Positions 1,234 through 32,597 of a stretch of DNA of 64,000 bases are shown here, one piece after another. Positions within the stretch are counted from its first letter, which is position 1; the number at the start of each line of letters is the position of its first letter. The stretch is from an uncultured Phycisphaerae bacterium (GTDB taxonomy: Bacteria; Planctomycetota; Phycisphaerae; UBA1845; Fen-1342): the NCBI GenBank assembly GCA_937928595.1, contig CALGJV010000013.1, positions 62,001 to 126,000 of the forward strand. Direction: 5' to 3'. The notes under the pieces were generated by a model. It saw only the letters and a program-made list of their open reading frames with translations. It was not told the origin of the DNA and did no database searches. The position numbers were made by a program, and so were the translations under genes.

Positions 1234-2301
1234 ATGCGGCACGCAGTCATCATGGCGGGCGGGTCCGGTACGCGACTGTGGCCGCTCAGCCGCCGCCGCC
1301 GGCCCAAGCAGCTCCTGCGGCTGTTCGGCGGGGCGTCGTTGCTCCAGTTGGCACGGCTGCGACTGGCTGGTCTCTTCGAGCCGCGGCAGGTGTGGGTCAT
1401 CACGTCGGCGTCCTACTTGGACCAGGTGGCGGCCGAACTGCCCGATTTGCCGCGTGACAACCTGATCGGCGAGCCGATGGGCCGCGACACGGCCAACGCG
1501 ATCGGCCTGGCCGCCGAGCTGATCGGCCGGCGGGATGCCGACGCGACCATGGCGGTGTTCACCGCCGACCACGTGATCGAGCCGCAGAATGCCTTCGCGG
1601 CCGCGATTCGCGCAGGGTGCGAGGCGGCCGAGCGCTATCCGACGGCACTCGTGACGTTCGGTATCCGGCCCACGCACGCCGCGACCGGGTACGGCTACAT
1701 CCGCCTCGGCCCCGCCCTTGACGCGGGCGTCCACCGGGTGGCCGAGTTTCGCGAGAAGCCGACGCGGGAAGTCGCGGAGGCGTATCTGCGGTCGGGCGAG
1801 TACGTCTGGAACAGCGGGATGTTCGCCTGGCGGCTGGACGCGATCCGCGCGGAGTTGGCCCGCAGTCTGCCGGAGAACGCCGCGCAGCTCGCGCGCCTGG
1901 CGGCCGGGTGGGAATCGGCGGATCCGGCGGCGCGGGCGGCGACCTTCGAACGGCTCCGGCGGATCTCGATCGACTACGGCGTGCTGGAGCAGGCCCGCGA
2001 GATTCTGGTCGTGCCGATGGCGTGCGACTGGCGCGACGTCGGCTCGTGGACGGCGGTGGCGGCGGCCCTGCCCGCCGACTCAGAGGGGAACGTCGCGGCT
2101 GCGGCGCGGGTTCTCGCGGTCGACAGCGCCGGCAACCTGGTCGTGGCCGAGGACGACCACCTGATCGCCCTGCTCGGCGTGCGCGACCTTGTGGTTGTCC
2201 GGACGCCGGACGCCACTCTGATCTGTCACCGGGACCAGGTTGAGCGGATCAAGGAACTGACCGTGGAGCGAGAGCGGCACTTCGGGGAAACGTACGAGTA
2301 G
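1234..2301 (+). CDS. manC: Mannose-1-phosphate guanylyltransferase
   Basis: Makes GDP-mannose from mannose-1-phosphate and GTP, the donor for mannosylated glycans and exopolysaccharide. The N-terminus has the nucleotidyltransferase signature GGSGTRLWPLSR...RPKQ (residues about 9-29). Further family blocks are FTADHVIEP (about 109), GYGYIRLG (about 152), FREKPT (about 170), WNSGMFAW (about 190) and DYGVLEQ followed by CDWRDVGSW (about 248-273). The length (355 aa) matches the monofunctional form without the C-terminal phosphomannose isomerase domain. Start: ATG with GGAGG 7 bases upstream. The PIG-V-like mannosyltransferase at 19374-20741 uses lipid-linked mannose and is a possible indirect consumer, but is not in the same operon. 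Confidence 0.93.
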   Translation: MRHAVIMAGGSGTRLWPLSRRRRPKQLLRLFGGASLLQLARLRLAGLFEPRQVWVITSASYLDQVAAELPDLPRDNLIGEPMGRDTANAIGLAAELIGRRDADATMAVFTADHVIEPQNAFAAAIRAGCEAAERYPTALVTFGIRPTHAATGYGYIRLGPALDAGVHRVAEFREKPTREVAEAYLRSGEYVWNSGMFAWRLDAIRAELARSLPENAAQLARLAAGWESADPAARAATFERLRRISIDYGVLEQAREILVVPMACDWRDVGSWTAVAAALPADSEGNVAAAARVLAVDSAGNLVVAEDDHLIALLGVRDLVVVRTPDATLICHRDQVERIKELTVERERHFGETYE

Positions 2302-2811
2302 ATCAGCGGTTCTGGGCGAGCACGGGCAGCGACGCCTGTCGCTGCGCTGTTGATCCTCGGGAACGCGACGTCCAGTGATGATGTAACCGATAAACGGCAC
2401 GTAAACCTTGACTTCGTAACGCGTTATATTTCAGAAGTCAAACGAATTGGGGTTCGTGGTGATTTCGGGAAACATTCGGGCCGCTTTGCCCGTCGATGCG
2501 GGCGTCTCTAACAGCATTGACGGCAACCGGTTACGAGCAATCTGGCTGATGTGGATTGCACGGCACGTGGAATGCCGCCCCAGGGGAGGTGGTGCTCTCC
2601 CGAGGGTAGTGTCACGGACGGCATCGCCGGGTCTCGGCCCGGCGCTGGCAACGGATTACGTGATACAGAAAGGCCGCGTCCAACGGCCGGCGGCAGCCAG
2701 TTGTGGAGGGCTGCGTGGCACGGTGGGGCGCAGTGAATAGAGCCGCTCGCGACCAGCACGGCCGCGGGCGGCTCTTTCTTTGAGCGCCTGGGGCAGGTCC
2801 GCGGCGGGGGT
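2302..2811 (+). ncRNA. Candidate structured non-coding RNA in a 510-base gene gap
   Basis: No credible protein frame occupies this gap. From about 2537 to 2781 the plus strand folds into a row of perfect-arm hairpins: 2537-2542/2554-2559, 2561-2565/2573-2577, 2584-2588/2597-2601, 2625-2631/2638-2644, 2672-2676/2684-2688, 2693-2698/2709-2714, closed by a 13-bp terminator stem at 2739-2775. An AT-rich block with TATATT at 2425-2430 could be the promoter, giving an RNA of about 350 nt. It lacks the signature sequences of RNase P RNA, SRP RNA, tmRNA and common riboswitches, and the next gene is on the other strand, so it would stand alone. It could also be a long structured 3' UTR of manC. Confidence 0.45.
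2739..2781 (+). terminator. Strong Rho-independent terminator
   Basis: Arms 2739-2751 and 2763-2775 pair along 13 positions with one G-T pair, around an 11-base loop, followed directly by TTTCTTT. Only the plus strand has the T run, so it ends transcription coming from the 2302-2738 region and not the convergent ATP-grasp gene. Confidence 0.85.
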
Positions 2812-3864
2812 TCAGCTGAAGTCAGGGCAGCCGCGGAGCGGAGGCACGAGCTTTGGTTTGAGGTCGGCGTCGAGCGGCAGGAAGACCGCCCAGTCATACC
2901 GCAACATGCAGAGGCCGTGGCGAAAGCCGTCGAACGCGATCGTCGGCATGTCCCCGCCAAGCTCGCGGAGCAGCCACTCCGGGAAGTCGGCGCCGGCCGC
3001 AATGGAAAGCGGCGCGCCGCCGCCGAAACGCGGGTTGATCTCGATGAAGCGGATGCGGCGGTCGGGCGTGACGATGCACTGGAGCGTCACGACGCCGCGG
3101 ACCGAGCGCCCGAGTGTCTCCACGACGCGGCGGCCGGCCTCCATGATGTCGCGGTCCTTGACGGTGACGCCCTTGGAGACCTCGCCGGTCCGCACCTGCC
3201 AGCGGGCACGCGGCACCACGCAGCGGGGTTCGCCGGTCAGGCCGACGTAGACGTCCAGCGTGTGCTCCACGCCCGAGACGAACTCCTGAATGATGGGATC
3301 GGCCACTCGCCGCACGAAGTACGAGAGGTCGGCTTCGTCGTCGAGCCGGTGGACCCATTGGCTGGCACTGCCGCACCGGGGCTTGATGAAAAGCGGGTAG
3401 CGGCGCGTCGGCTGCGCCAGAAGCTCGTCGGCCGTGAACGTCTCGGGCGTGTCGATTCCGTGGGCCCGCAGGTGCCGGTAGGTCGCCATTTTGTCGCGAC
3501 AGACGTCGATGACGTCGGCGGCCCCGATCAGCGGCAGACAGCCGAGGGCCTCGATGTCCGCCCGCTGTCGGGCCAGCGCTTGCAGGTCGGTGTCTGTGGT
3601 CGGAATGAGCGCCGCGGCGCGATGAGCGCGGACGGCCGTCAGGACCGCCGGCACGTAGTCCGGCGTCGTAGCGCGGGGCATGATGACCGGGGTGTCGACG
3701 ATGGACAGGGCCGGCGCGGTCAGGTCACTGTCGAGCCCCACGACGTGCAGGGTCAGGCCCAGGCGGCGTGCGGCCGCCCGGAAGGCCTGGACCAGCTCCA
3801 CGCGGCGGCCGACGCAGGTGAAGATCAGCGTAGTCGGTTCGGTGGATTTGCCGCCCTGTGCCAT
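2812..3864 (-). CDS. ATP-grasp ligase, CarB/PylC-like
   Basis: An ATP-dependent carboxylate-amine ligase-type enzyme of about 350 aa. The N-terminal half is a Rossmann-like pre-ATP-grasp domain (IFTCVGRRVELVQAF, about 13-27; GLDSDLTAPAL follows). The ATP-grasp core shows FIKPRCGSASQWV (about 157) and the metal-binding FIEINPRFGGG (about 273-283), with GVVTLQCIV before it. The overall pattern resembles stand-alone relatives of the carbamoyl-phosphate synthase large subunit. Substrate cannot be told. The ATG at 3864 was preferred; a GTG at 3933 would add 23 residues without homology-like sequence, and neither has a clear ribosome site. It is divergent from the SH3 protein and convergent with the candidate RNA. 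Confidence 0.75.
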   Translation of the reverse strand: MAQGGKSTEPTTLIFTCVGRRVELVQAFRAAARRLGLTLHVVGLDSDLTAPALSIVDTPVIMPRATTPDYVPAVLTAVRAHRAAALIPTTDTDLQALARQRADIEALGCLPLIGAADVIDVCRDKMATYRHLRAHGIDTPETFTADELLAQPTRRYPLFIKPRCGSASQWVHRLDDEADLSYFVRRVADPIIQEFVSGVEHTLDVYVGLTGEPRCVVPRARWQVRTGEVSKGVTVKDRDIMEAGRRVVETLGRSVRGVVTLQCIVTPDRRIRFIEINPRFGGGAPLSIAAGADFPEWLLRELGGDMPTIAFDGFRHGLCMLRYDWAVFLPLDADLKPKLVPPLRGCPDFS

Positions 3865-3988
3865 ACACTGCGAAGTGTCCCGCTGGGCGGGCTCTGCGCC
3901 AAGCACGGCGGGTGGAGGCCGGCCGTTTGACACGTCCCGGGGCCGTGGCTACGGTGCCTGCGCGGGGGCTGACGGCGAGGGCGCCACG

Positions 3989-15423: not shown

Positions 15424-15563
15424 CGCGGTGCTCTCCGTCGGAAGGGACCGAAACGCCGGCGCGCGCAGCCGACAGGACCGCGCCGGTACGCGGACAAGCT
15501 ACTCGCAAGGCCGGGCCGCGGCAAACGGCCGCCGTGGAGGCGCCGAGCGCCCACGCCGCCGCG

Positions 15564-31377: not shown

Positions 31378-32421
31378 ATGAGCCCGCTGTCCCCGTTCGC
31401 TGAAGCCCGCGCCTACGCCGGGGCAAAGCTGCGCGACGTGCGCGGCATCCGGCTGGCAGCGCGTTTCGGCGATCCGGCCGCCGAGTACGACGCGGCGCGC
31501 TCGGGTGCGGTGCTGCTCGACCGCAGCGATCGCGGCCTGCTGGCCGTGCACGGTCGCGACGCCCGCGCGTGGCTGCACAACCTCGTCACGAACGCCGTGC
31601 GAACGCTGGACGACGGCGCGGGCAACTACGCCTTTGCCTGCAATGTGAAGGGCCGCGTGCTCTTCGACCTGAACGTCCTCGCGGTCGGCGACGGTCTCTG
31701 GCTCGATCTCGACCGTGCGACGATCCCGGCCGCGCGGGCCCACTTTGATCGGCACCTGTTCACCGAGGAGGTGCGGTTCACGGACCTCACCGGCCAGACC
31801 GCCCGTCTGGGCTGCACCGGCCCGCGGTGCGTCGAGCTCGCCCGCGAGCTCGGCGTCCCGCACTTCGCAGCGCTGCCCGCGCTCGCGCACGTCGGCCTTT
31901 CGGAGGAGGTCCGCTTCGGGCGGCACGACTTCGCGGGCGGCCCCGGGTTCGAGCTCGTCGTGCCGCGCGGGACGGCGGCCGCCTGGTGGGACCGCCTCGC
32001 CGCCGCCGGCGCGACGCCCGCGGGCTACGACATGCTCGATGTCCTGCGCATCGAGGCCGGTCTGCCCTGGCTCGGGCGCGACATCGACGAGACCGTCCTG
32101 CCGCCGGAGACCGGGCAGGTCGAGCGCGGCGTCTCGTACCAGAAGGGCTGCTACCTCGGCCAGGAAGTGCTGGAGCGCATGCGGGCCCACGGGGCTCTGG
32201 CGCGGCGGCTCGTCCGGCTGGCGATGGACGACGGCCGCGACGTCGTCCTGCCCGCGCCGTTGATTCAGGCCGGGGCGGACGTGGGGCGCATCACGTCGCT
32301 CGTGCCGCACCCGCGGACCGCCCGCTGGATCGGACTGGGCTACGTACGGACGACGGTGACGAGTGTCGCGGACATCGTGGTCGGCGCGCCGCCTCGCGCC
32401 GTGACGGTGCTTTCCGGGTAG
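31378..32421 (+). CDS. ygfZ: YgfZ/GcvT-like folate-binding Fe-S cluster factor
   Basis: A 347-aa GcvT-fold protein. The diagnostic YgfZ motif is present as QKGCYLGQEVLERMRAHG (about 258-275, with the conserved Cys), while the aminomethyltransferase catalytic Asp context of GcvT is absent. YgfZ-type proteins use tetrahydrofolate and are needed for full activity of several Fe-S enzymes, including the tRNA thiomethylase MiaB. The N-terminus (VLLDRSDRGLLAVHGRDARA, LHNLVTNAV) matches the family. It lies immediately before tRNA-Leu(UAA) and an Nfu-type Fe-S carrier. The TAG stop at 32419 forms part of the tRNA's TAGAAT -10-like element. Confidence 0.9.
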   Translation: MSPLSPFAEARAYAGAKLRDVRGIRLAARFGDPAAEYDAARSGAVLLDRSDRGLLAVHGRDARAWLHNLVTNAVRTLDDGAGNYAFACNVKGRVLFDLNVLAVGDGLWLDLDRATIPAARAHFDRHLFTEEVRFTDLTGQTARLGCTGPRCVELARELGVPHFAALPALAHVGLSEEVRFGRHDFAGGPGFELVVPRGTAAAWWDRLAAAGATPAGYDMLDVLRIEAGLPWLGRDIDETVLPPETGQVERGVSYQKGCYLGQEVLERMRAHGALARRLVRLAMDDGRDVVLPAPLIQAGADVGRITSLVPHPRTARWIGLGYVRTTVTSVADIVVGAPPRAVTVLSG

Positions 32422-32455: not shown

Positions 32456-32529
32456 GGGTCAGTAGCCCAATCGGCAGAGGCAGGGGACTTAAAATCCCCC
32501 CAGTGCGGGTTCGAATCCCGTCTGACCCA
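32456..32529 (+). tRNA. tRNA-Leu(UAA) with a short variable loop
   Basis: Seventy-four bases fold into a full cloverleaf: acceptor GGGTCAG/CTGACCC with discriminator A; T arm GCGGG-TTCGAAT-CCCGT; anticodon stem GGGGA/TCCCC with loop CTTAAAA, so anticodon TAA (reads UUA). The D stem is 3 bp with a C-A mismatch, as is common for Leu tRNAs. The variable region is only 5 bases (CCAGT), although leucine tRNAs normally have a long variable arm. CCA is not encoded. A37 lies in an A-A-A context, the usual target of MiaA/MiaB. Confidence 0.9.
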
Positions 32530-32597
32530 CTGACCCGCGGCCCGTGCCGCCGGAGAAGACCGCAGAAGGCCCCGGTGGCCGTTACTTGGAGAACTGC

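Follow-up and report, generated by a model that had tools for sequence, protein, structure and literature searches.

CrfA of Caulobacter crescentus is a sponge of the small RNAs (sRNAs) SisA-D of the alphaR8 family, and acts through Hfq (PMC12559287). In each of the sibling sRNAs SisA-D, a short single-stranded core of the anti-Shine-Dalgarno type, UUUCCUCCCU, lies next to a Rho-independent terminator, and these sRNAs are bound by a separate RNA with a G/A-rich complement (PMC12559287). SroC, a sponge of GcvB, and 3′ETS-leuZ, a sponge of RyhB and RybB, are further noncoding RNAs that sequester sRNAs by base pairing (PMC12559287). For the PVC group as a whole, a review counts no more than eight sRNA families derived from Rfam (PMC9029176). 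In the literature searched, no characterised sRNA was found for the bacterial group of the DNA studied here. Plant target mimics of the IPS1 type carry a decoy site with extra bases in its middle, as does the site described below; they differ in being eukaryotic and based on microRNAs and Argonaute.

The window, by which we mean the whole 64,000-nucleotide stretch analysed (G000:C13:62001-126000), belongs to a planctomycete genome of 3.7 Mb. This genome is denoted G000, and other G numbers denote relatives. The RNAs considered are a candidate noncoding RNA encoded after manC and a partner sRNA. CrfA appears to be the closest known system, a likeness on paper that carries no evidence of common descent. 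The resemblance to CrfA and SisA-D is that sibling sRNAs, two in each genome, have a terminator and a CU-rich core, and that the complement lies on a separate RNA. The sequences and the phylum are different, however, and no Rfam model matches; the partner core GCUUCUUUCCCCUCC resembles that of SisA-D only in being CU-rich and anti-Shine-Dalgarno, and Rfam may lack an alphaR8 model. The pairing predicted here is longer than that of CrfA (about 20-25 nt), reaches into the terminator arm and is interrupted by a bulge or hairpin. The dependence of CrfA on Hfq has no detected counterpart either: Hfq (PF17209) was not above the cut-off in 31 genomes of the order, including the window's own, and five control genomes were positive. 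A divergent Hfq, or another chaperone, may possibly have been missed. The result fits a long pairing that proceeds without that chaperone. Whereas SroC and 3′ETS-leuZ are processed from mRNA or tRNA precursors, the relatives' RNAs have their own terminator, and that of G022 has its own sigma-70-like promoter candidate (TTGACA-17-TACCTT, read by eye).

The stretch downstream of manC

The following features define the locus.

1234 to 2301, plus strand: manC (mannose-1-phosphate guanylyltransferase-like; Pfam PF00483, NTP_transferase, and PF22640, ManC beta-helix), the syntenic upstream neighbour
2425 to 2781, plus strand: candidate noncoding RNA, with the bounds of the preliminary description; gene-free stretch with a terminator and with syntenic counterparts in seven other genera
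2739 to 2780, plus strand: intrinsic terminator, a 13-bp stem plus two pairs and then TTTCTTT; same-strand terminators occur in all eight genomes
2812 to 3933, minus strand: ATP-grasp gene with a PylC-like N-terminal domain (Pfam PF02655, PF21360), the convergent neighbour

The preliminary description had reported a 510-base gene-free stretch with a strong terminator, and both observations were reproduced. The stretch occupies 2302-2811, between manC and the convergent ATP-grasp gene; the hairpin at 2739-2775 folds as a 13-bp stem with two more pairs and is directly followed by the T-rich run, at the previously given distance of 438 bases from the manC stop. The terminator is the solid part of the earlier observation. 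It places the 3′ end of the candidate RNA at about 2780; the 5′ end could lie anywhere upstream of about 2588. An AT-rich start at 2425 had been proposed, but no recognisable sigma-70 promoter is present there, and none was identified for the window copy. A sigma-54 promoter at 2561-2576, a weak counterpart of the sequence in G009 that prompted the idea (see below), was rejected, as 67 such sites occur in the window against 95 expected, which is chance level.

The RNA had also been said to lack signature sequences of RNase P, SRP, tmRNA and the common riboswitches. A search of 2302-2830 against Rfam gave no match at the gathering threshold and nothing credible at E <= 10, and Rfam 15 run on the whole window at the gathering threshold returned a tRNA and nothing else. 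The sole tRNA of the window is a tRNA-Leu (TAA) at 32456-32530. Neither the after-manC RNAs of the relatives nor the partner sRNA had an Rfam match. When the stretch was checked for a protein-coding signal, as had been proposed, no reading frame was common to the relatives. A small coding gene (frame 2447-2740) was considered and discarded; it had no Pfam match, and the frame is not conserved across relatives.

The preliminary description had read the row of hairpins as exceeding chance and as defining a new structured RNA. The z score of 2425-2800, which includes the terminator, is indeed low (-4.15), but it rises to -1.87 when the terminator is left out (2425-2735). This lies inside the range of background windows of 311 nt from the same contig (mean -0.41, sd 1.10; 5 of 90 at -2 or lower), and the minus strand of 2425-2735 scores lower than the plus strand (-2.98). 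Much of the original value is thus due to the terminator, and the hairpin row is no evidence for a structured RNA. The hairpins other than the terminator are neither unusual nor found in relatives, and the conserved part of the RNA is instead a linear motif complementary to another small RNA. A structured RNA defined by its hairpins is therefore hardly credible.

Conservation among relatives

Searches with blastn in 100 relatives found no homologue of the whole stretch or of the hairpins at 2425-2590, chance matches only, and the stretch is unique within its own genome. The best match to the stretch (L010) was rejected because it sits in a ribosomal-protein-like coding stretch, and a genome-contig search for related loci with the ATP-grasp protein yielded nothing. 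The convergent pair was located via the manC and ATP-grasp proteins, and seven other genomes of the same family (G002, G003, G010, G013, G016, G022 and G024) were read in detail. The gap between the two genes measured 26-141 bases in five of the seven, 335 in G022 and 623 in G013. The three long gaps, in the window, G013 and G022, have GGTGCTYTCC(C)GAGGG in common; the comparison of manC/ATP-grasp intergenic regions suggested in the preliminary description thus did uncover a shared motif.

A motif search located the same sequence after manC in G009, G011, G014 and G021; G023 has it there with a single change. Together with G000, G013 and G022 this makes eight of the 22 same-family genomes tested, and the RNA is kept in eight genera. 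Seven of the eight after-manC regions contain GGTGCTTTCC, and the eighth contains GGTGCTCTCC. Outside words within the motif no 9-mer is widely common to the eight regions (in shuffles, no 9-mer occurred in more than three). As no other long word is widely shared by the eight genomes, the evidence points to a lineage-specific gene whose conserved core is a sequence and not a fold. The functional part of the RNA would be an anti-sRNA site made up of three elements.

2591 to 2606, plus strand: conserved motif GGTGCTCTCCCGAGGG (= GGUGCUCUCCCGAGGG), complement of the sRNA core GCUUCUUUCCCCUCCGGAGAGCACC; evidence from its recurrence downstream of manC in eight genomes and from duplex energies
2609 to 2666, plus strand: stem-loop GTGTCACG ... 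CGTGATAC, an insertion between the half-sites, predicted from the minimum-energy fold
2667 to 2673, plus strand: AGAAAGG, putative degenerate second half-site (AAGAAGC in relatives), from comparison with the relatives

In the other genomes the place of the stem-loop is taken by a bulge or hairpin that differs in length and sequence; the insertion of G011 could form a short hairpin (CGTGCC/GGCACG). Six of the eight genomes have AGAAGC beyond the variable insertion, and the insertion lengths are not divisible by three. This spacing, together with the lack of a start codon after the site, argues against a coding or plain mRNA-target role. A terminator-like hairpin lies downstream of the motif on the same strand in all eight genomes. 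The length and content of the RNA outside the site vary widely, and by appearance it is much shorter in G011 and G022. In the G009 copy (L131, G009:C97), TTGGCACGGACGTTGCA, a perfect-looking sigma-54 promoter sequence, is present upstream of the motif.

The earlier claim of a free RNA with a strong terminator has thus gained support from eight syntenic genomes that combine the motif with a same-strand terminator and have no shared frame and no Rfam match. These comparisons make it very probable that an independent noncoding RNA is encoded downstream of manC.

Across the order, the exact two-part pattern is confined to the family of the window genome, where it is always found after manC. Elsewhere in the window GGTGCTYTCC also occurs at 15427, beside the start of a gene, and at 32406, within the last part of a coding frame; both were taken as chance. 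Copies with one mismatch elsewhere in the family, apart from the after-manC site of G023, were mostly coding-like where read. In another family of the order, GGTGCTTTCCGAGGG occurs in apparently non-coding DNA at L135 (G059), L137 (G097) and L139 (G083), with AAGAAGC downstream of it at L135. These are possibly distant sponge copies.

The partner sRNA and its predicted pairing with the after-manC RNA

A motif pattern search gave matches in 92 of 101 relatives, while a backward control pattern was found in few. Most of these matches proved to be the exact reverse complement of a second small RNA. Its core is GCUUCUUUCCCCUCCGGAGAGCACC / GCUUCUUUCCCCUCCGGARAGCACC, of which the motif at 2591-2606 is the complement. 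Read in its own sense, the sRNA has the form GCTTCTTTCCCCTCCGGARAGCACC-loop-GGTGCYYTC-TTTTT, an intrinsic terminator placed after an unpaired CU-rich stretch. This exposed anti-Shine-Dalgarno stretch makes the core complementary to ribosome-binding sites. The T-run terminator was present in 126 fetched copies, and two-sided changes were observed in four of the 12 pairs of the stem (20 sequences). The sRNA occurs almost throughout the order in about two copies per genome; beyond the order, a 25-mer search allowing one mismatch did not find it in any of 293 genomes of the phylum. Two forms can be distinguished, a longer one with a 5′ hairpin and a short one in which a TTGACA-17-AATACT-like promoter, recognised by eye, lies just before the core. 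The genome of the window contains two copies, one with the 5′ hairpin and the other starting almost at the core.

G000:C24:4944-4968 (L129): sRNA copy, GCTTCTTTCCCCTCCGGAGAGCACC plus terminator
G000:C19:97307-97331 (L130): sRNA copy, GCTTCTTTCCCCTCCGGAGAGCACC plus terminator

At L127 (G015:C1:2116015-2116030), an ATG follows shortly after the sRNA-sense core GCTTCATTCCCCTCCGGAGAGCACC, and the usual terminator is lacking.

Duplex energies were calculated between the sRNA core and the 600 nt after manC. They ranged from -32.3 to -40.7 kcal/mol in the eight genomes, against a mean of -24.0 for 500 overlapping background windows, of which 0-2 were as low as each of the eight. The low energies were limited to the plus strand, and an antisense query gave ordinary values, as did the other 19 genomes tested (14 family members and five outgroups). 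The predicted pairing comprises ten pairs on the terminator arm of the sRNA, up to five on CCCUC and up to seven or eight on the CUUCUU end. The window copy forms the weakest duplex (-32.3) and has a degenerate 3′ half, in which GAAAG can pair with CUUUC of the sRNA. For the window copy alone, energy is weak evidence, given that the background windows overlap one another and that chance sites elsewhere in the window come close to the same values. Cofolding of the full-length RNAs gave the motif duplex as the optimum for G011, G013, G021 and G022 and only in part for G014 and G023; for G000 and G009 it was not the optimum. No compensatory change between the two RNAs was found, because the sRNA core is nearly invariant. 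A site complementary to the sRNA seed is thus present in the eight syntenic genomes as a group and weak in the window copy. Synteny, motif conservation, the terminators, a group complementarity far above background and the lack of Rfam matches are computed results; the weight of the case appears to lie in the synteny and the exact motif.

As its one conserved part is the complement of a widespread sRNA, the RNA may act as a decoy. With moderate confidence, we read the after-manC RNA as a putative sponge or decoy for the anti-Shine-Dalgarno sRNA; our confidence is lower for the window copy because its second half-site is degenerate. The sRNA would occupy the ribosome-binding sites of mRNAs, and the after-manC RNA would present the same kind of site with no start codon behind it. 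Such a site without a gene behind it implies competition for the sRNA, which the RNA would bind and sequester, or destabilise, as a target mimic or sponge. We infer transcription of the RNA, its binding inside cells and the direction of the effect.

The same complementarity would fit the opposite direction, in which the RNA has some other function and the sRNA controls its level or processing. The wide differences in length and content outside the site could be accommodated by such a regulated target, but nothing is conserved there apart from the terminator, which leaves no conserved carrier for another function, and neither a start codon nor a reading frame lies behind the site. We consider this direction unlikely. 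It is very unlikely that the RNA works independently as an sRNA whose G-rich motif binds other CU-rich RNAs or a protein, with the partner sRNA as only part of its range. The RNA does have its own terminator and its own position, and G/A-rich stretches are able to bind several partners; the motif, however, spans exactly the sRNA core and takes in the terminator arm GGARAGCACC, a sequence peculiar to this sRNA and not a general anti-Shine-Dalgarno sequence.

The locus might also be a non-functional trace, either an inverted fragment of an sRNA gene or a decaying manC 3′ UTR with an ordinary terminator. Of the 22 family members tested, 14 lack the RNA after manC, yet nearly the whole family has the sRNA, and the window copy has the degenerate 3′ half-site and no promoter that was found. 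Against decay, the motif is exact in several genera while all flanks have diverged, sharing is limited to the complementary core and does not extend to the sRNA loop or flanks, and the insertions are placed between the two half-sites. A trace is therefore quite unlikely.

A candidate mRNA target and the proposed circuit

A relaxed form of the pattern, GGTGCTTTCC(A/T)GAGGAGGAA(A)GAAGC, was found in G021 and G010 immediately in front of the ATG of a gene for a small coiled-coil protein. Of 101 relatives, 94 possess this gene, for which no Pfam or NCBIfam family scored above its cut-off.

G000:C4:112936-113211 (L155), and orthologues: small coiled-coil gene (MNEAEFQKRL...)

The ribosome-binding site of this gene, (G)AGGAAAGAAGC, fits the sRNA core. 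Pairing of its 5′ UTR with the sRNA gave energies of -43.8 (G021), -40.2 (G010), -36.1 (G013) and -27.7 (G000), and of -23 to -32 in most other family members, compared with a mean of -19.8 and a minimum of -29.7 for a small control set of 27 other Shine-Dalgarno-led starts. These energies suggest that the sRNA blocks ribosome-binding sites, and make the coiled-coil gene the best candidate target found for it. In six relatives of the order (G039:C325, G042:C11, G045:C50, G054:C7, G057:C1 and G099:C37) the coiled-coil gene has a neighbour within about 1.5 kb that is homologous to the ATP-grasp gene located after the RNA in the window.

The three elements can tentatively be assembled into a circuit that would operate in an order of Phycisphaerae without detectable Hfq, consisting of an order-wide sRNA family, the coiled-coil mRNA as one of the targets whose ribosome-binding sites it would occupy, and a family-specific sponge gene after manC. 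Within this circuit the sponge would, equally tentatively, copy the site of the target and split it with a hairpin or bulge. A conserved sRNA whose sequence matches both a candidate target and a candidate sponge would offer a testable entry to RNA regulation in bacteria lacking detectable Hfq. If the reading is true, it would suggest that sponge control of anti-Shine-Dalgarno sRNAs arose outside the Proteobacteria too.
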